Below are positions 415-13,401 of a stretch of 14,201 nt of DNA, in pieces. The position numbers and the translations under genes were made by a program. Source of the stretch: Candidatus Zhuqueibacterota bacterium (GTDB lineage Bacteria; SM23-31). The stretch's first letter is position 1; each line of letters starts with the position of its first letter. The notes below the pieces were generated by a model, which was not told the origin of the DNA, ran no database searches, and saw nothing but the letters and a program-made list of their open reading frames with translations. Location of the stretch: the NCBI GenBank assembly GCA_022562855.1, contig JADFON010000010.1, forward strand, positions 1 through 14,201, given 5' to 3'.

Positions 415-660
415 ATGGCAGAATTCAAAAAACTCCATGAAGGGTTGGTTAAGAAAGGTGGGGTTAATGACCCACCGAAATCCGAAAAACCTGACATTCA
501 ACCTCCAGGTCAAGGCTCGAATCAATGCACAGATCAAGACTCGAATCAAGGCACAGGTCAAGACTCGAATCAAGGCACAGGTCAAGACTCAAGTCAAAAC
601 CAAAACCAAACCAACACTTCAAGTAACCAAACCAATAATCAGAATTCTAATTCAGATTAA
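415..660 (+). CDS. Small Q/N-rich low-complexity protein with an 8-residue tandem repeat
   Basis: 81 residues, ATG start with a good ribosome site (GAGGA at 403-407, 7 nt before the ATG). The first 36 residues are charged and proline-containing (GLVKKGGVNDPPKSEK). The rest is Gln/Asn/Ser/Thr-rich with the octapeptide DSNQGTGQ tandemly repeated, then Q/N tracts to the end. There is no signal peptide, membrane segment or known fold, so it is probably disordered. It follows the upstream gene by 19 bp and appears to be the last gene of that transcript. A second, overlapping frame at 437-664 is a shadow: it has no ribosome site, and the tandem repeat reads as a clean polar octapeptide only in the chosen frame. 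No function can be assigned. Confidence 0.6.
   Translation: MAEFKKLHEGLVKKGGVNDPPKSEKPDIQPPGQGSNQCTDQDSNQGTGQDSNQGTGQDSSQNQNQTNTSSNQTNNQNSNSD
514..597 (+). repeat. 24-bp in-frame tandem repeat, about 3.5 copies
   Basis: Unit GACTCGAATCAAGGCACAGG plus TCAA (24 bp). Copies are at 514-537 (diverged), 538-561 and 562-585 (identical to each other), then a half copy at 586-597. It encodes GSNQCTDQ, DSNQGTGQ, DSNQGTGQ, DSSQ. The identity of the two central units suggests recent slippage expansion, and the length of the unit (a multiple of 3) keeps the frame open. Confidence 0.9.
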
Positions 661-3106: not shown

Positions 3107-4790
3107 TTACTTCCCTCTTTCAAAAACTACCTTCCCGTTGAAGACGGTTATGTCTGCTTGTGTTTCGAGGATTTCTTCTGCGGGGATGGTCATGATGTCT
3201 TTCGACAGGACAACGAGGTCGGCAAATTTTCCGGGCGTGATCGAACCGAGAACGTCTTCTTCAAAACCCATATAGGCGGCGTCAAGCGTGTAACTTTTGA
3301 GCGCTTCTAAGCGTGTCAACCGTTGTTCGGGATACCATCCGCCTTCTGGGCTGCCTTCGCTGTTCTGCCGGGTCACTGCTGCATGGATACCCATAAACGG
3401 GCTGAATCTCCGTCTTCCTTCATCCGACCCGCCGACAATGCGGACACCTTCGTTTAAGAATGTCCTCCACGCATACCCGCCTTTTATCCTTTCCGGACCG
3501 ATGCGTCTTTCTGCCCAGGGCATATCGAGTGTTGCATGGATCCACTGGAACGAGGCGATCAAACCAAGTTCGGCAAACCGGGGGATGTCCTCAATGGCTA
3601 CGATCTGCGCATGTTCCACCCGCATCCTGTGGTCGCTGACCTGGACTTCCGCCAACGCTTTTTCGACAGCGTCGAGGACGATCCTGTTGCCCCTGTCGCC
3701 TATCGAATGCAGGGCGGCTGTGAAACCGTTTTCGAGGCACGCTATTAACACGCCGTAGACATTTTCCGGTGTAACGCGTATCACACCGATCGCCGGGTTC
3801 ATCGCTGTATGGTTCGAGTAACGCCGCGCCGCGTGCTCCAAGCGCTCCGTCGATGGACATTTTTACTCCCCGCGCGGTCAGGCGGTGGTTTCCTTCGGCT
3901 ATTACCGGACCGGCTGAAATAAAATCGTCGAGAATTTCACCCGTTTCCCATATCCGTATATATCCGTTTATCCTGAAATCGAACTCCCCCGCTTCTATCA
4001 ATTCCCGGTATGCATTTATTGTTGTCACGCTTGTTCCCATGTCGTGTGCGCCTGTGAAACCATACGAGTGTGGCAGTGCAACTGACTTTTTGATTTGTTC
4101 GGTCAGGGGTTCGCGCTGTCCCGCCGGGATAACAGCACGGACTATCCTCTGCGCATTTTCGATCAGGATCCCGGTCGGTTCCCCTGTTTCGGTATCGCGT
4201 TGTATGACCCCGTCGGACGGGTCGGCTCTATCGCGTGTAATTCCGGCAAGTTCGAGCGCTTTGCTGTTCATCCAGCTTGCGTGGCTGTGCATCCCGACAA
4301 ATGAAACGGGATTGTCCGGGGCAACCTCATCCAACGCCTCTTTTGTGGGCCAGACTTTGGTCACCCAGTTTTCGTAGTGCCATCCGCGTCCGGTGAGCCA
4401 TTCACCCGCAGGCAGGGCGTCGACCCGCCGTTTTATCAATGCAAGCGCTTCCTCGATACTGCGCGTGTCGTCAAGTTCCACGATACGGCTTACGTCGGAA
4501 CCGAGCCCGGCAAAGTGCAAATGCCCGTCGACAAGTCCCGGCACCACGGTCCTGCCGAGAAGGTTAATTGTTATAGTATTCTCCCCTTTGAGGGCGTTTA
4601 TTTCTTCATTACTGCCTACCGCCAGTATCTTCTCCCCTTTAATAGCGACCGCCTGTGCTTCGGGCTGATATTCATCGACGGTCACGATCTTACCGTTGAC
4701 GAGTATCAGGTCTGCGGTGTCCACAGTACCGCAGCCTATTGTTAGTGCACAGAGCATTAGTATGCTCATCACGCCTGCATATATTTTCAT
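3107..4790 (-). pseudogene. YtcJ-type amidohydrolase lipoprotein, interrupted by one frameshift
   Basis: Two overlapping minus-strand frames form one amidohydrolase (Amidohydro_3, YtcJ-like) of about 560 residues. The 5' part has a lipoprotein signal (hydrophobic stretch ending LTIGC), then the metal-site HLH in LVDGHLHF, and runs in frame to YSDEPGD. The reading then continues in the next frame as GVIRVTPENVYG, with the remaining expected ligand motifs LHSIGDRGN, RVEHAQ and GGSDEG, and ends in NGKVVFERGK. Restoring one base near 3787-3793 gives DEPGDRGVIRVTPENVY, as expected for the family. No other damage is seen, so a very recent mutation or a sequencing error is likely. The start ATG at 4790 has a strong site (GGGGAGG, 7 nt away). 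The product would be an envelope-anchored hydrolase of an N-acyl, amide or cyclic substrate; the substrate is unknown. Confidence 0.85.
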
Positions 4791-5048: not shown

Positions 5049-5786
5049 TTAAATGGGCGCTTCTTCCGCATAAAATTGTTTTTCAATGACATCCTGAATT
5101 TTTTTTACAAGAGCGTTGCGGCTGGCAAAGTCGTATTCCGAGGTATCCACAGGTTTACCGATATAAATGTGAACATGTCCGGAATTTATTGTAAAAGAGT
5201 TTTTTGGCATTATTTTGTTGCTGCCCTTGATGGTGACCGGGACAATCTGTCTTCCGGAATTAATCGCCATGACAAATCCACCCTTTTTAAACGGGTGAAT
5301 TTTACCATCGGGAGAACGGGTTCCTTCCGCGTAGACCAGCGGCGAAATATTTTCTTTTTTCAATCTTTCCGCAGCTCGGTCAAGACTTTCTATAGCCTTT
5401 TCGCGGTTTTGCCTGTCGATTCTTATTACGCCCCCTGCCCATATAGCCCATCCAAAAAACGGAACCCGAAACAGTTCTTTTTTAGCAAGCATCCTGATAC
5501 TTGAAGGAATAGACGCGATACATACCGGAATGTCCATCGTGGACTGATGATTGGAAATAAACACATAGGACGTTTCGGGATCGATGTTGTCCACGCCTTC
5601 AACCGTTACTTTTATCCCACAGGTGAAAAGAACTAACCTCGCCCAGAAACGGGCTAATACATCGACAAGCCTGCCCCTTCCGAGAACCGGTACCAGCAAT
5701 ATGACCAGTATCGAGATCACTATCGTATAACCAGCGCCCAATACGACGAAAATTGCAGAACGAATATTTTGATAAATTTCTGTCAC
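5049..5786 (-). CDS. plsC: 1-acyl(alkyl)-glycerol-3-phosphate acyltransferase (PlsC family)
   Basis: 245 residues, typical length for PlsC/AGPAT. One N-terminal membrane segment (about 11-35) is followed by the acyltransferase domain. This has the catalytic HX4D as NHQSTMD (His80, Asp85), IRIDRQNR (121-128, the substrate-arginine region), EGTRS (154-158) and the late motif VPVTIKG. It transfers an acyl chain to sn-2 of a lysophosphatidate-type acceptor at the inner face of the membrane. As last gene of the ether-lipid operon it would make 1-alkyl-2-acyl-glycerol-3-phosphate. Ordinary phosphatidate synthesis is the alternative, and the two are not exclusive. It lies 76 bp after the SDR gene, the widest gap in the operon. 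The start is GTG with no clear Shine-Dalgarno; no in-frame ATG lies between it and an upstream stop. Confidence 0.85.
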   Translation of the reverse strand: MTEIYQNIRSAIFVVLGAGYTIVISILVILLVPVLGRGRLVDVLARFWARLVLFTCGIKVTVEGVDNIDPETSYVFISNHQSTMDIPVCIASIPSSIRMLAKKELFRVPFFGWAIWAGGVIRIDRQNREKAIESLDRAAERLKKENISPLVYAEGTRSPDGKIHPFKKGGFVMAINSGRQIVPVTIKGSNKIMPKNSFTINSGHVHIYIGKPVDTSEYDFASRNALVKKIQDVIEKQFYAEEAPI

Positions 5787-5862: not shown

Positions 5863-6669
5863 TTATTTCCCCTGTTCACCTGTTTTTTTATTGATGATCC
5901 ATTCCAGTAATCCGGGACTGATCATGTTCAACCAGGGAAGGAGTTTGAGCTTTGGAGGAATTACGAGTTCTTTTTTACGTTTCTGCATTGCCTTGATAAT
6001 CTTTCTGCAGCATTCCTCTACGGTTATCGATTCACCCGTGTGTTTTTGCCTCGAATCTCCAAGGGTGCTGCCGTCTTTTCCGAAAGCGTTACTCCGCAAA
6101 TTCGTCCCCCTTATCCAGTGAGGAAGAACCATGAGAATATCGACGCCGGAACCGTCAAGTTCCATTCGAAGCGATTGAAAAAATCCCTGCAAAGCGAACT
6201 TCGAAGCGACATAACCGGTATGGTAAGGAACTCCGATTTTCCCCTGTATCGATGATATAACGACCATCATTCCCCTGTTTGCCTTGAGCATGGGAAGAGC
6301 ATAATAGAGGCAGTGAACGACTCCAAGATAATTAATATCCATCATTTTACGGTAGATATTGACATCTTTAATATCTTCGAATTTCGCCCACATACTGATC
6401 CCGGCGCACGCTACAACGTAATCCAGCGACCCGAATTTTGCACCGGCTTTTTTTACAAATTTTTCACAGTCTTCCGGGCGGGTTACGTCGCCTCCTTCTG
6501 TCAAAGTTTCGCTTCCAAGTTCACGGCACTGTTTACCGGTCTCCTCGAGTTTTTCCAGGTCTTTGTCAAATAGGGCAAGTTTAGCCCCTTTCCGGGCAAA
6601 CTCCAGCGACAACGATTTGCCGAGTCCCGACGAAGCACCTGTTATAATAATACTTTTACCGGTAAACAT
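5863..6669 (-). CDS. Short-chain dehydrogenase, probable acyl/alkyl-DHAP reductase (DHRS7B/Ayr1-like)
   Basis: 268 residues, classical SDR. Cofactor motif TGASSGLG (10-17), ACAG (87-90) where most relatives have NNAG, structural Asn113, and the triad Ser140, Tyr153 (YVASK), Lys157. The stretch SSIQGKIGVP (139-148), FFQSLRMEL, then TNLRSNAFGKDGS strongly recalls human DHRS7B (PexRAP), which has SSIQGK and a TNL..NA...DGS motif after the catalytic tyrosine. DHRS7B and yeast Ayr1 reduce acyl/alkyl-dihydroxyacetone phosphate to the glycerol-3-phosphate form with NADPH, the step right after alkyl-DHAP synthase. The C-terminus (SPGLLEWIINKK) could be a membrane-touching helix. The ATG immediately follows the TAG stop of the AGPS gene, so translation is probably coupled. 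The SDR fold is certain; the substrate is inferred from similarity plus context. Confidence 0.85.
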   Translation of the reverse strand: MFTGKSIIITGASSGLGKSLSLEFARKGAKLALFDKDLEKLEETGKQCRELGSETLTEGGDVTRPEDCEKFVKKAGAKFGSLDYVVACAGISMWAKFEDIKDVNIYRKMMDINYLGVVHCLYYALPMLKANRGMMVVISSIQGKIGVPYHTGYVASKFALQGFFQSLRMELDGSGVDILMVLPHWIRGTNLRSNAFGKDGSTLGDSRQKHTGESITVEECCRKIIKAMQKRKKELVIPPKLKLLPWLNMISPGLLEWIINKKTGEQGK

Positions 6670-8409
6670 CTATTTGTTGTTCTGTTCAAACTGCTTAATT
6701 TTTTCTTCAGGAAGTCCCCATCCGCTAAAGGGGTCTTTCGGCGGGATAATTTTGCCCGGATTCATTACTCCGTTCGGGTCCAGTCCTGATTTCAGGGCTT
6801 TTACGGCTTTTACACCGGTAGATGAAATGTCTTCTTCCAACCAGGGCAAATGTTCATAACCAACCGCATGATGGTGAGATAAAGTGGCGCCATTTTTTAT
6901 AAACGAATCTTCGACTGTTTTTTTCACATAGAGATATTCATCAAGTTCTCTTCCCGGTGTTTCGGTAAATCCGAACGTAAAATAAAGGCTTGCCCCGGAG
7001 TGATACGTATGGCTTATGTGACAGCCGAGAAACGGTTTGTTCCCGGTATTTTTTATAGCCTTCTCCAGTGATTCGAGTGTCGCGTAATACAGAGGGAGCA
7101 GCTTACTCCATACTGTTGTGGTTTCGCTGACATCTGCAACGATACCCCGCTCCATTGCATAATCCCGCAAATACGGAAAATCATATTTACTCCGCTCAAA
7201 TGACCTGCCGGGATCTGTTCCAAGATTTATCGCGCCAAATTTTTTGTATATGGCGTTTACCTTCTTTTTGTGTTCCCTGAATTTCTTTTTATCACCTTCA
7301 AAAGCCGCTATCATGAGGCATAATTTGTCGGAATCGAACCTCTTTACGTGTTTTATGTAAGCTTTTACTAATTTAGAGAGGAACGGTTTGATGCCGGTGG
7401 ATTTCGTTTTATATGCGAACGAAAGCGCAGTTTTTCCCGGGTCGCTGAGCCTGGTGATCATAGGAGGGCATTCTTTTTCGACGCACATGTTTACCGCTTT
7501 GACGCCGCTTTCAAAATCGGGGAACAAATAACCGTAGAAATCCCTGCATTCCGGGCGTCGGTGCACTTGCATCGTAGCTTCTGTTATTACTCCAAGAATC
7601 CCTTCACTTCCGATGCAAATATGGTTTATGTCTACCCCGTTCGATGATTTCGGAACTGTTCTCGTGACGATAGTCCCGGCAGGAGTGACCATACGGAGAG
7701 CGAGTACCATGTCCTCGATCTTTCCGTATTTATCACTCTGCATCCCGGCAGACCGTGTAGCTATCCATCCTCCCAGTGACGAATATTCAAATGAATCGGG
7801 AAAATGACCCAGCGTCATTCCGGCTGCGTTCAACTGTTCTTCCATATGCGGACCCATCACGCCCGCCTGGATACGCGCGGTACACGACTCGTCATCCACG
7901 CTGAGCACTTTATCCATCCGTTTCATATCGAGAGAAACTACCATTCGCCCGTTGTGTCCTTTTGCTTCAAGACATCCGGCGATGTTCGATCCACCGCCGA
8001 ACGGAATAATTATTACATTGAATTCCGAGGCGGCTTTTACAATTGAAGAGACATCATCCTCGGTTTCAGCATAAATTACACAGTCCGGCGCCGCATCGAC
8101 AATACCGCGTCTTATACGCCACAGGTCTCTAAAGCTTTTGCCGTAAGCATGGATTATCCTGTCTTTTTTGTCTGTATTGACCTGGTCTTCCCTGAGAACG
8201 GATTTTACAACTTCTGAAAATCGCGGATTGATATTCGGTTCGGATAACGCTATCTGTTCAAGGTCTACGGGCGGAATTATCTTTGGCTCCTCGGTTATCC
8301 CGAGAATTTTTTTCATGTAAGGCCAGAGTTCAGGTTTGCTTTCGATATCGAATTCGGTACCTTCAGCTCCCCATCCCCACCACTTCATTTGCGCGACGTT
8401 TTTTTTCAA
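6670..8409 (-). CDS. agps: Alkyl-dihydroxyacetonephosphate synthase (alkylglycerone-phosphate synthase), FAD-dependent
   Basis: 579 residues. It makes the ether bond by exchanging the acyl chain of 1-acyl-DHAP for a fatty alcohol. FAD is used without net redox. Visible motifs: N-terminal KWWGWG, FAD-binding PFGGGSNIAG (136-145), DSFEYSSLGGWIATRSAGM (205-223, much like human PDSLEFSTVGGW), GSEGILGVITEATM (267-280), Arg320 (the position of the human disease residue Arg419), TYHSGASLYF with the conserved Tyr469, and SHHHAVG (His512-514) of the active site. Together these separate AGPS from D-lactate or glycolate oxidases of the same superfamily. No peroxisomal signal is present, as expected. The frame opens with TTG at 8409, which has AGGGA 5 nt upstream and overlaps the previous gene by 47 bp. 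ATG at 8388 (MKWWGWG) has no ribosome site but matches where homologues usually start. Confidence 0.93.
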   Translation of the reverse strand: MKKNVAQMKWWGWGAEGTEFDIESKPELWPYMKKILGITEEPKIIPPVDLEQIALSEPNINPRFSEVVKSVLREDQVNTDKKDRIIHAYGKSFRDLWRIRRGIVDAAPDCVIYAETEDDVSSIVKAASEFNVIIIPFGGGSNIAGCLEAKGHNGRMVVSLDMKRMDKVLSVDDESCTARIQAGVMGPHMEEQLNAAGMTLGHFPDSFEYSSLGGWIATRSAGMQSDKYGKIEDMVLALRMVTPAGTIVTRTVPKSSNGVDINHICIGSEGILGVITEATMQVHRRPECRDFYGYLFPDFESGVKAVNMCVEKECPPMITRLSDPGKTALSFAYKTKSTGIKPFLSKLVKAYIKHVKRFDSDKLCLMIAAFEGDKKKFREHKKKVNAIYKKFGAINLGTDPGRSFERSKYDFPYLRDYAMERGIVADVSETTTVWSKLLPLYYATLESLEKAIKNTGNKPFLGCHISHTYHSGASLYFTFGFTETPGRELDEYLYVKKTVEDSFIKNGATLSHHHAVGYEHLPWLEEDISSTGVKAVKALKSGLDPNGVMNPGKIIPPKDPFSGWGLPEEKIKQFEQNNK

Positions 8410-9148
8410 TGATTTCCCTGTCTTTCAGCTTATGAATTCTTTTTTCAAGTTCTTTTGTCACTTTAGCATACGACCTAAAGTTTTTAGTTGTGCTTTCTTC
8501 GCCATTACTTAAATATTCCCCGGGGTGAATAGGTTCCCCGATAAAAATTTGGAGTTTGACCGGTTTCATGAGGTTCCTGCCCTTCGGCATTGCTTTGTAA
8601 GTACCATCGATATATGCCGGCAGAATCGGAATGCCAAGTTCGACTGAAACGATTGAAAGACCTCTTTTGAACGGCTGCAAATCACCCGTTTTTGAACGGG
8701 TGCCTTCCGGGTAAATAATCAAACATCTCTTGTCTTTATTGACAAATTCCCTGCATGCAACAAGATACTCGGTTATGGTTTTACGGTTCGATTTCCTGTC
8801 AACCGGTATGAGGTTCATCAGAATATTGAGAAAGAACTTTCGTATCTTGTTTTCAAAAAAATAGTCCTTTGCGGCAATCATTGCAAAGTTCTTAAAACCT
8901 TTGCCGGATGCCGTCATCAATACGCCGCTGTCCATATGGCTGTTATGGTTACTGCAGAAAATAAAAGGTGAATCGGGAATATTTTCCTTTCCATAGATAG
9001 TCAACGGACAGTAAAGCGAAAACAAAACCTTGCAATACAATTCGAACAATTTCTTTCCGAACCTGCCGAGTAACGTCTGGTCTGCAGTGATATGGGAGTA
9101 TTCCGGCGCCAGCTCGGTATTCTCAAGCGCCGACCGGAAGGTGCTCAT
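8363..9148 (-). CDS. PlsC-family acyltransferase, probable DHAP acyltransferase of the ether-lipid operon
   Basis: 261 residues. HX4D motif in SNHNSHMD (His68, Asp73), LIPVDRKSNR (113-122), YPEGTRS (146-152), and PILPAYIDGTYKAMPKG at 174-190. There is no clear long N-terminal membrane helix, only an amphipathic region (about 26-50). A charged helix lies near the C-terminus. It differs clearly from the other PlsC in this operon, so it is not a recent duplicate. Its place just before alkyl-DHAP synthase suggests it makes acyl-DHAP, the AGPS substrate. In animals that step is done by GNPAT, from another branch of the LPLAT superfamily, so this assignment is inference. The ATG directly follows the TAA of the upstream gene, with GGGAG 7 nt away inside that gene, and its 3' end overlaps the AGPS start. 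Confidence 0.85.
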   Translation of the reverse strand: MSTFRSALENTELAPEYSHITADQTLLGRFGKKLFELYCKVLFSLYCPLTIYGKENIPDSPFIFCSNHNSHMDSGVLMTASGKGFKNFAMIAAKDYFFENKIRKFFLNILMNLIPVDRKSNRKTITEYLVACREFVNKDKRCLIIYPEGTRSKTGDLQPFKRGLSIVSVELGIPILPAYIDGTYKAMPKGRNLMKPVKLQIFIGEPIHPGEYLSNGEESTTKNFRSYAKVTKELEKRIHKLKDREIIEKKRRANEVVGMGS

Positions 9149-10303
9149 TTATTGTCTCCCGTAATTTGCGTGCGAAATTGCGAATTCATCGCTTGCAATG
9201 GCACCACCAAGCGATAGTTCGAGAGCCATAGCGCATGCACAAATGATCTCAGCCAGTTTTTTGGATGAGTTTTTTCCGGTACAGCCCATCAATTTCAGGT
9301 TGTTTTTCTGTTGTTTCAACCGTGTTCCCCCGCCAACCGTTCCGACACTGATGGAAGGCATGGTAAGATTGACATAAAGATCATCGTCGTTCCGCACCTC
9401 ATAACTCATGATACCAAGCGCGTTTTCCGCAACACATGCCGCATCCTGACCCGTTGCGAGGTAGATTGCGGTAAGCGCATTAGCCACGTGCTTATTCGAA
9501 CCGACTACACCCGCCATTTGCGAACCGCAGTTTGCCTGTATCCATCCATCGGCAAATTCACGCGCAGACGCTCTGAACATTCTCGTCAATATCTTGTTCT
9601 TTACGAAAGCGCTTGCAATAACCTGGTGGCTTCTGCCGATAAGCAGTGTCTTATAAGCCGGATTCTTGTCGCCGCTGAAATTACTCTCAAGATAATAGCG
9701 GTAACCGCTTGAATCCTCAAATTTTTCTTTGATATATTTGCACGCAATGTACGTAGCGATCGTTACCATATTTTGACCGGCAGCTTCTCCCGTATCGTAA
9801 AGAAAATCGAGTATAATGCTATTTTGACTGGGATATTTATCGATTCTGAGGAGCTTTCCATGCTTTGTCGTTGATTCTGCGGCGCTTTTTATCTCATCGT
9901 AATGGTCTTCGATCCAATTCACAAACATCTTCGTTTTATCTATATCGTCAAAGATAAAGATAGGGCTGCGTGATATTTCCTGTTTAATGTGGACTGTTTT
10001 TATTCCCCCCGACAGGTACATAGCGAAAAGTCCCCGCGTCATGGACAAAGTCAGCGTCCCTTCCAATGTACACAATGGCACATAAAAGATGCCGTCGGCG
10101 TAGGTTCCGTGTATGAGAAGAGGTCCCGTTACCGACATCGGAATCCGGACATACCCTACGTGATTCTCTATTATTCCCTTTAATTCATCCGGTTCTTCGG
10201 GAACTCCGTCCAGAAACTGATATCCCGTTTTTTCTTTCAGCCATTCTCTTCTTTTTGCAGTATTCGACTTTTTGAAGCCTCCCGGTGGTCTTACTCGAAG
10301 CAT
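9149..10303 (-). CDS. Class I-like HMG-CoA reductase homologue, divergent; possible acyl-thioester reductase
   Basis: 384 residues, equal to the catalytic domain of class I HMG-CoA reductase with no membrane domain. Landmarks: ENHVGYVRIP (47-56), TGPLLI, the catalytic Glu81 in TLEGTL, Arg112, GEAAGQNM (172-179; human GDAMGMNM), catalytic Lys213 in GDKNPAY, Asn270, ATGQDAA with Asp287, TMPSISVGTVGGG (314-326) and His378 in ISHANYGR. All four catalytic residues of a four-electron thioester-to-alcohol reductase are therefore present. By eye alignment to the human cis-loop SGNYCTDKK, Ser684 becomes Glu206 and Lys692 becomes Asn214, two residues that contact the HMG carboxylate. Substrate is thus uncertain: HMG-CoA, or a fatty acyl thioester giving the alcohol needed by AGPS. 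First gene of the operon; ATG with AGGA 7 nt upstream. Confidence 0.87.
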   Translation of the reverse strand: MLRVRPPGGFKKSNTAKRREWLKEKTGYQFLDGVPEEPDELKGIIENHVGYVRIPMSVTGPLLIHGTYADGIFYVPLCTLEGTLTLSMTRGLFAMYLSGGIKTVHIKQEISRSPIFIFDDIDKTKMFVNWIEDHYDEIKSAAESTTKHGKLLRIDKYPSQNSIILDFLYDTGEAAGQNMVTIATYIACKYIKEKFEDSSGYRYYLESNFSGDKNPAYKTLLIGRSHQVIASAFVKNKILTRMFRASAREFADGWIQANCGSQMAGVVGSNKHVANALTAIYLATGQDAACVAENALGIMSYEVRNDDDLYVNLTMPSISVGTVGGGTRLKQQKNNLKLMGCTGKNSSKKLAEIICACAMALELSLGGAIASDEFAISHANYGRQ

Positions 10304-10678: not shown

Positions 10679-11305
10679 ATGCGTCCTCTATACTATGTAA
10701 CCGGAAAAATCAAAAGTGTTCGTATTAAATCATATAAAGCTGCTGTAGCGGCTTCGGTTATACTGCACGCGATTTTTATAACCGCTTTGAGTTTTTTCGG
10801 AGCAGGTACATCCGATACGATCAATGTAGAAAATTCGGTTTATGAGGAAGATATAACGACAAAAGAATATGAAGTCTCGTATGTGAACCTCGAATCTGAA
10901 AACACAGAATCTTCTGCGCTTTCTGCTGCGCCAGCGCAGCCTTCTGTGGAAATTCAAGGTGAAGAACCAAGCCCAATGGAGCTTATTACATACAGGACAG
11001 AAACAACCGTTCTCACCAGCGCAACGGGTAAACCAAGAGGGTATATCAACGGTGCGGTTGTAGAAAATGTTGAGGTCACTTTCGCTTATCTTGTAGTTGA
11101 AGCCCCGCCCCCGCCGCCCGCAGAAGAGGAAAAAGATCTTTTTTACTATCTAATGGGAGGCAGCCAAAGTGGAGCCGGTTCGAGTAGATCGGGATATGGC
11201 GGTGGAGTTGGAAGCATCGCGATTGGAGACGGAATGGGAGGCTCATGCCCCAGTCCGAACATCATCAATATCAATAGAAGAAAACCGGTAAGAGGCAAAA
11301 ATTGA
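10679..11305 (+). CDS. TonB-like N-terminal anchor protein without a TonB C-terminal domain
   Basis: 208 residues. A basic N-terminus is followed by one membrane helix (about 21-42, AAVAASVILHAIFITALSF), whose pattern of small residues and a histidine resembles the anchor of TonB/TolA/AgmX proteins. The rest would be periplasmic: an acidic Ser/Glu region (50-100), a segment 101-140, a proline cluster PPPPP (143-147), a glycine/serine-rich stretch (160-189) with SRSGYGGGVGSIAIGDG, one Cys190, and a short basic tail. A TonB box-binding C-terminal domain is absent, so it is either a truncated TonB-family protein or an envelope protein that only shares the anchor. The ATG has a strong AAGGA site. 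It is monocistronic, with its own terminator at 11341. Confidence 0.65.
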   Translation: MRPLYYVTGKIKSVRIKSYKAAVAASVILHAIFITALSFFGAGTSDTINVENSVYEEDITTKEYEVSYVNLESENTESSALSAAPAQPSVEIQGEEPSPMELITYRTETTVLTSATGKPRGYINGAVVENVEVTFAYLVVEAPPPPPAEEEKDLFYYLMGGSQSGAGSSRSGYGGGVGSIAIGDGMGGSCPSPNIININRRKPVRGKN

Positions 11306-12504: not shown

Positions 12505-13401
12505 ATGCGTCTTATAACGAGGGGAGATGCCGATGGTTTGGCATGTGCTGTTTTCATTACGATAACAGAAAAAATTGAATCTATCATATTTGCACATCCA
12601 AAAGATATGCAAGATGGTAAGGTAGAAGTTTTACAGAATGATATTATCTGCAATTTGCCATATCACCCTGATTGTTATTTGTGGTTTGACCACCATATAT
12701 CAGAAGAAACCCGGAACGAAAAGGTTAAGGTTGGAAAATTTAAAGGAAAATTCGGGTTAGCTCCCAGTACTGCCCGATTGGTCTATGAATACTATAATGA
12801 CATTAACTTAAAAAAATACGAAGATTTTTTATCGGCTGTAGATAAATTGGATAGCGCACAATTGGATAAAAGTGATGTAATAGACCCCAAAGGGTGGATG
12901 TTGTTGATGATAAGCCTCGATCCCAGGACGTCACTCGGGGATTTTGAATTTTATTTCTCCGAATTGGTCGATTGGATCAAAAAAGATTCTTTTGAGGAGA
13001 TTATGAAACAGCCGGAGGTGCAACTTCGGTGTGATTATGTTTTGTCGGAATTAGACGAATTTAAAAAAGCTCTGTTAAAATATACGACTTTGGAAAACAA
13101 TGTGATCGTGATAGACTTTCGTGATCTGGAATTGATCCCAATGGGTAACCGGTTTTATGAATATATACTTTTCCCGGAGAGGAATATCTCGATAAGATTA
13201 TTTTGGGGGAAAGACAAGCATAATATAATATGCGCTGTAGGACATTCAATTTTTAAGCGGGATTCTAAAACAAATATTGGGTTACTCCTTAAAAAATATG
13301 GTGGAGGCGGTCTTCGCGGAGCAGGTACATGCCAACTCGACCCGGAAACGGCGGATAAACAAATTTCTGAAATAATAGAGCAAATAAAACAAGATGGTTA
13401 A
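12505..13401 (+). CDS. DHH-family phosphoesterase
   Basis: 298 residues. The N-terminal DHH domain has RGDADGLACA (6-15, metal-binding Asp8 and Asp10), HPKDMQDGK (31-39), the signature FDHH (61-64) and VDKLDSA (112-118). The C-terminal DHHA1-like substrate domain ends with GGGGLRGAGTCQ (266-277). DHH proteins are Mn-dependent phosphodiesterases or phosphatases (RecJ, NrnA/oligoribonucleases, cyclic dinucleotide and polyphosphate hydrolases). This subtype is often annotated as exopolyphosphatase-like, but the substrate is not settled. The DHHA1 motif normally reads GGGH; here His is Leu270, which may alter substrate binding. It has a strong start (AGGAG 7 nt before the ATG). The stop overlaps the next ATG (TAATG). 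Confidence 0.85.
   Translation: MRLITRGDADGLACAVFITITEKIESIIFAHPKDMQDGKVEVLQNDIICNLPYHPDCYLWFDHHISEETRNEKVKVGKFKGKFGLAPSTARLVYEYYNDINLKKYEDFLSAVDKLDSAQLDKSDVIDPKGWMLLMISLDPRTSLGDFEFYFSELVDWIKKDSFEEIMKQPEVQLRCDYVLSELDEFKKALLKYTTLENNVIVIDFRDLELIPMGNRFYEYILFPERNISIRLFWGKDKHNIICAVGHSIFKRDSKTNIGLLLKKYGGGGLRGAGTCQLDPETADKQISEIIEQIKQDG

Follow-up and report, generated by a model that had tools for sequence, protein, structure and literature searches.

A homologue of class-I HMG-CoA reductase as the probable fatty-alcohol source of AGPS in a four-gene bacterial operon

The window analysed in this work, i.e., the whole stretch of 14,201 nucleotides of contig JADFON010000010.1 from a Candidatus Zhuqueibacterota bacterium, harbors an operon whose first gene, fcrA, belongs to the HMG-CoA reductase (HMGR) family and whose third gene codes for alkyldihydroxyacetone-phosphate synthase (AGPS). 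The lead gene very likely encodes a FcrA-type reductase feeding fatty alcohol to AGPS; for its clade, we infer both the activity and the substrate. An earlier reading of this DNA, made from the letters alone (the sequence-only reading), had proposed that an HMGR homologue was repurposed as the alcohol-forming reductase of AGPS. This idea is now strongly supported by the residue signature, the clade, the synteny, the co-occurrence with AGPS, and the lack of a detectable HMG-CoA synthase, and the mechanism put forward is very probably right. The enzyme type, however, was known already: a fatty acyl reductase of the HMGR family, taken in that reading to be undescribed, was published in 2025 as FcrA (PMC11948995), so that the gene represents a case of FcrA and not a new enzyme class. 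The fixed fcrA-plsC-agps-SDR operon, its spread in Neomarinimicrobiota, the distinct clade, and the swapped AGPS appear to be unreported in the searchable literature. The genes considered are the following:

9149..10303, (-) strand: fcrA, class-I HMGR homologue, predicted fatty acyl-thioester reductase yielding fatty alcohol (NADPH, four electrons), on the basis of PF00368, the model compared with 1dqa, the signature residues, and the clade
8363..9148, (-) strand: plsC1, PlsC/LPAAT-like acyltransferase (PF01553; directly after fcrA in relatives)
6670..8409, (-) strand: agps, alkyldihydroxyacetone-phosphate synthase (FAD), Dictyostelium type (matches to 2uuu and 4bby)
5863..6669, (-) strand: SDR, candidate acyl/alkyl-DHAP reductase (DHRS7B/PexRAP step; PF00106; NF004825 above cut-off), fourth gene of the operon
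5049..5786, (-) strand: plsC2, 1-acylglycerol-3-phosphate acyltransferase (TIGR00530 above cut-off)

Family, fold, and pocket residues of the lead gene

The fcrA gene codes for a protein of 384 aa, matched end to end by the Pfam profile PF00368 (HMG-CoA_red) with 346 bits. The protein consists of the HMGR domain alone, without an N-terminal Lad or ACP domain, and its score with the NCBIfam NADPH-HMGR equivalog (281 bits) lies below the cut-off of 442. The top sequence match in the PDB is an archaeal class-I HMGR (6hr7, 248 bits). The AlphaFold2 model of the protein (mean pLDDT 91.2; input alignment of 42 sequences) was compared with the human HMGR structure 1dqa, containing HMG, CoA, and NADP+, giving a Z of 45.5 and an rmsd of 1.6 Å over 345 aligned residues. 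The Z values were 43–45 with class-I HMGRs (human, Methanothermococcus) and about 34 with class-II HMGRs; hence, the fcrA product is a class-I HMGR by fold. The sequence-only reading had placed the gene in the HMGR family and suggested structure prediction as a check; both the profile match and the predicted class-I fold are in agreement with that assignment.

The published counterpart, FcrA from Ca. Promineifilum breve, is an HMGR homologue that others have expressed and purified for enzyme assays (Grossi et al. 2025, PMC11948995). With NADPH, it turns acyl-CoA with chains of at least C14 into the alcohol, whereas HMG-CoA is not reduced and 10 µM simvastatin does not inhibit the enzyme (PMC11948995). 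An N-terminal Lad or ACP domain is confined to certain FcrA and is, hence, optional (PMC11948995). The signature of the enzyme is printed as the replacement of S684 by Glu, the loss of "Lys795", and a bulky residue in place of L862 (PMC11948995). The offset between N. pharaonis and human numbering is 324 at Glu360/S684 and 326 at Asp441/D767 (PMC11948995); since Gly411 of N. pharaonis plus the offset of 324 of the neighbouring residues gives 735, the printed "Lys795" must be Lys735. All three features are present in the protein encoded in the window (Glu206, Gln256/Ala257, and Phe374). The codons of the pocket residues are located as follows:

9686..9688, (-) strand: Glu206, corresponding to human Ser684 (FcrA signature; alignments)
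9662..9664, (-) strand: Asn214, corresponding to human Lys692 (alignment; variable position)
9536..9538, (-) strand: Gln256, corresponding to human Lys735, which phmmer pairs with Ala257 instead; loss of the carboxylate salt bridge
9182..9184, (-) strand: Phe374, corresponding to human Leu862 (bulky residue, FcrA signature; alignment)
9785..9787, (-) strand: Glu173, corresponding to Asp653 of the DAMGMN motif (alignment)

According to the family alignment, the catalytic residues Glu81, Lys213, Asp287, and His378 correspond to human E559, K691, D767, and H866. They are kept, as had been read from the letters, and the change of DAMGMN into EAAGQN was found as well. The by-eye pairing of Ser684 with Glu206 and of Lys692 with Asn214 came out the same in the profile, family, and structure comparisons, and the profile alignment restored neither a Ser684 nor a Lys692 equivalent. 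Two further changes were absent from the sequence-only reading, that is, the replacement of Lys735 (by Gln256 with one aligner and by Ala257 with another) and that of Leu862 by Phe374. Thus, the canonical HMG-carboxylate contacts Ser684, Lys692, and Lys735 are all replaced in this protein.

The conservation of these changes was evaluated in the operon clade, comprising 45 FcrA sequences. Glu occupies the 684 position in 45/45 members (and in 67/84 other homologues), and the 862 position harbors either F (28) or W (17). The 735 position is variable, with Lys in a single member out of 45 (L019, MAFFT column); in human HMGR, K735 forms a salt bridge with the HMG carboxylate, a role known from the human statin complexes. 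At the 692 position, K occurs in 36 members and N in only nine, so that Asn214 falls outside the conserved, diagnostic signature. The conserved pocket changes are S684E, the loss of K735, and a bulky residue at 862, K692N being excluded. Moreover, the position of Asp653, belonging to the DAMGMN NADP(H) motif, is occupied by N (36), E (8), or D (1) in the operon clade and by D in 83/84 other homologues; among the aligned homologues, its near-complete loss is restricted to this clade, which suggests that cofactor handling may differ there.

Operon structure, distribution, and exchange of AGPS

The ATG of plsC1 directly abuts the fcrA stop codon. The listed start of agps, a TTG, overlaps plsC1, and an in-frame ATG lies at 8388. 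On sequence grounds, the gene at 6670–8409 can be firmly assigned to AGPS: its product scored 472 bits with the Dictyostelium ADPS 2uuu, 340 with the mammalian 4bby, and 98 with the next, non-AGPS family, and the catalytic Tyr and the HHH motif are present in all the aligned AGPS rows, including that of the window. The earlier statement that AGPS shares an operon with the lead gene is borne out by its position downstream on the same strand. The plsC2 gene, probably responsible for sn-2 acylation, lies outside the conserved core, as it is not kept downstream in relatives.

Further features were observed in the rest of the window. An amidohydrolase-like frame at 3107–4790 (-) is split over two overlapping frames (3591–4790 and 3107–3841), which suggests either a frameshift by assembly error or a decaying gene. 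An ORF at 10679–11305 (+), of 208 aa and divergent from the operon, codes for a hydrophobic stretch near the N-terminus and for a run of prolines, and an ORF at 12505–13401 (+), of 298 aa, has a start (MRLITRGDADGLACAVFIT) resembling DHH-type phosphoesterases; neither had a match in Pfam or NCBIfam. A short ORF at 415–660 (+) contains repeated, Q/N/D/S-rich units of the GQDSNQGT type.

The scan of named genomes listed at least 80 fcrA homologues. In the six closest among the matches listed (48–65% identity), belonging to Neomarinimicrobiota (two), Caldithrix, Planctomycetes, a MAG, and Gammaproteobacteria, PlsC1 and AGPS are encoded directly downstream in all cases (6/6). The other 74 listed homologues (identity of 42% or less) had no such AGPS in the fetched flank, which reached up to 10 kb and was often shorter. 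Furthermore, we checked 245 Neomarinimicrobiota genomes, 52 of which harbor fcrA and 54 AGPS: AGPS occurs in 52/52 FcrA-positive genomes vs. 2/193 FcrA-negative ones (Fisher p 2e-51, ignoring kinship). Forty loci were fetched from this phylum, and one contig stops just after fcrA, leaving 39 readable loci. The order fcrA-plsC1-agps was found in 39/39 of these and in the loci from other phyla L019–L021 and L023, with the SDR gene next after agps in every Neomarinimicrobiota locus where the contig goes on. The same holds for the 45 members of the operon clade, each followed by acyltransferase and AGPS genes, and then by the SDR gene wherever the contig continues. Beyond this four-gene core, the clustering of neighbours revealed no additional gene with a constant position.

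About a fifth of the sampled Neomarinimicrobiota carry the proposed four-gene pathway, which also turns up sporadically in Calditrichota, Planctomycetota, Gammaproteobacteria, and the lineage of the window. No fcrA homologue was found in five class-level relatives of the window genome; the operon is therefore patchy and may have been laterally acquired. According to passages of a Black Sea survey, 49/134 Marinisomatota MAGs harbor Agps homologues, and in these passages no alcohol source for Agps is named (PMC11868695).

In the phylogenetic tree, the operon FcrAs form a single clade (support 100/100), set apart from the canonical enzymes by a 100/100 branch that separates 61 rows from the human, archaeal, and three other canonical-side rows. 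The tree includes Caldilineaceae sequences from the phylum of the assayed Pb-FcrA in place of Pb-FcrA itself; the identity between the operon clade and the FcrA groups containing Caldilineaceae is only about 40%. The AGPS slot hosts two lineages about 30% identical, i.e., a Dictyostelium-type AGPS (window, L019–L021, and L023) and a mammal-type AGPS (Neomarinimicrobiota). Compared with the Neomarinimicrobiota locus L018, the window shares 65% identity for FcrA, 54% for PlsC1, and 30% for AGPS. Hence, at least one exchange has taken place in the operon, of either AGPS or its partners fcrA and plsC1 as a pair, with the function of the slot being kept. The AU tests of an FcrA split by AGPS type (p values of 0.154 and 0.054) did not decide on the fine FcrA topology, by which the exchange would be dated.

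These data also bear on the nature of the substrate. The replacement of D653 by N or E, specific to the clade, and the variability of the 735 position, together with the ACP domain of other FcrA relatives (PMC11948995), would be in line with an FcrA-like enzyme acting on a different acyl thioester (acyl-ACP, hydroxylated, or branched), or with one releasing an aldehyde, so that the operon lipid would not be a simple straight-chain 1-O-alkyl lipid. Since AGPS chemistry requires a primary alcohol and both the Dictyostelium-type and the mammal-type AGPS are found in the slot, we regard this reading as very unlikely.

Genome content and other possible roles

The FcrA enzyme was characterised in wax-ester synthesis, as in Natronomonas (PMC11948995), and one may ask whether the alcohol produced by the fcrA product goes chiefly to wax esters, AGPS being a secondary user. 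This is very unlikely, given that fcrA and AGPS go together in all the readable loci; moreover, no WS/DGAT match was retrieved from 30 operon-bearing genomes, although this search weighs little, the control being silent too.

A canonical FAR elsewhere in the window genome was also considered. PF07993 gave six matches, the better ones being NDP-sugar epimerases, and the same profile also matches in all 14 controls. As the matches that were read are NDP-sugar epimerases, we found no FAR in this genome.

As for the mevalonate pathway, the sequence-only reading had proposed looking for HMG-CoA synthase and for a separate canonical HMGR. The window genome, which is 79.6% complete, contains one PF00368 gene, as does each of the six relatives. 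No HMG-CoA synthase was found in the window genome (about 80% complete) or in the relatives (0/7). This result and the profile alignment described above count against most of the outcomes by which that reading would have been refuted. Neither of the MEP genes Dxr and IspH had a match in the window genome, and IspH is present in 5/6 relatives; given the completeness of about 80%, the absences from the window genome are provisional. It is hardly credible that fcrA encodes a genuine HMG-CoA reductase of the mevalonate pathway lying in a lipid operon by chance: in spite of a fold and catalytic residues that are wholly those of a class-I HMGR, and of the lack of detectable Dxr and IspH in the incomplete window genome, the loss of the HMG-carboxylate contacts S684 and K735, the score below the HMGR equivalog cut-off, the genome content (no HMG-CoA synthase in seven genomes and IspH in most relatives), and the strict synteny with AGPS speak against the canonical role, which we reject. 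Annotations that would call such genes mevalonate-pathway HMGR are corrected accordingly.

Proposed pathway and comparison with known systems

Returning to the FcrA-type reductase that feeds AGPS, we can depict the following scenario. A class-I HMGR, whose HMG-carboxylate pocket would have been remodelled for a long unbranched acyl chain, would convert acyl-CoA (or acyl-ACP) and two NADPH into a primary fatty alcohol through the kept Glu/Lys/Asp/His machinery. PlsC1, to which we assign a substrate from its context, would provide 1-acyl-DHAP, the acyl donor required by AGPS. The SDR, in its presumed role of acyl/alkyl-DHAP reductase, would reduce 1-alkyl-DHAP to 1-O-alkyl-glycerol-3-phosphate. 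The sn-2 acyl chain would then be attached by PlsC2 or a housekeeping LPAAT. The simplest reading is, thus, that four genes account for the four steps leading to 1-O-alkyl-glycerol-3-phosphate; in it, the functions of PlsC1 and the SDR are putative, as is the lipid formed. The family, fold, residue pattern, clade, synteny, co-occurrence, and AGPS identity were established in this analysis, and the reduction of acyl-CoA to alcohol without activity on HMG-CoA was established by others for a related FcrA (PMC11948995).

We lean towards the view that one branch of FcrA is dedicated to ether lipids and took the place of FAR in an AGPS pathway reduced to four genes, being tuned in a particular way for its cofactor or substrate (D653 changed into N or E). 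If true, this would account for the source of fatty alcohol in AGPS-bearing bacteria in which no FAR is recognised, many Neomarinimicrobiota among them, supplying the step missing from their pathway, and would predict alkyl ether lipids in them. The strict linkage, rather than a loose co-occurrence, points to the probable purpose of HMGR-derived reductases outside the wax-ester makers. Moreover, the compact four-gene cassette is directly testable in E. coli for the formation of alkyl ether lipids.

An ether-lipid role for some FcrA was already proposed in the paper describing the enzyme, from a looser co-occurrence: AGPS is found at a distance of nine genes from Pb-fcrA, and in Coxiella fcrA is adjoined by a PlsC-like gene (PMC11948995). 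The window protein and FcrA have in common the class-I HMGR fold, the catalytic Glu/Lys/Asp/His, the change of S684 into Glu, the loss of K735, and a bulky aromatic residue in place of L862, as well as the lack of a detected mevalonate pathway and a suggested link with AGPS. The window clade differs from the characterised FcrA in being a separate clade, lacking the Lad/ACP extension, and carrying E or N in place of D653; furthermore, it is fixed in a four-gene AGPS operon, whereas the published FcrA co-occur loosely with WS/DGAT or AGPS. The missing extension and the changed D653, together with the identity of about 40%, weigh against the FcrA-type reading. With the class-I HMG-CoA reductases (human, Methanothermococcus), it shares the fold and the catalytic residues, but the pocket residues S684, K735, and L862 are changed and no HMG-CoA synthase was found.

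In Myxococcus xanthus, the operon MXAN_1676-1674 codes for AGPS, a FAR/GNPAT fusion, and an oxidoreductase (PMC9131029). This operon and ElbD embed the same functions as that of the window, i.e., an alcohol-forming reductase, an acyltransferase, AGPS, and an NAD(P)-dependent oxidoreductase (PMC9131029); the Myxococcus reductase, however, is of the FAR-like (Rossmann) kind and forms one fusion protein with the acyltransferase, whereas that of the window is HMGR-derived and a separate protein. The mammalian peroxisomal pathway (FAR1, GNPAT, AGPS, and PexRAP/DHRS7B) comprises the same four reactions as those predicted for the operon, and the AGPS enzymes are homologous, with the catalytic Tyr and the HHH motif kept; in the window, the place of FAR1 is taken by a non-homologous HMGR-derived enzyme, the acyltransferase is PlsC-like, and the genes are organized in a bacterial operon.
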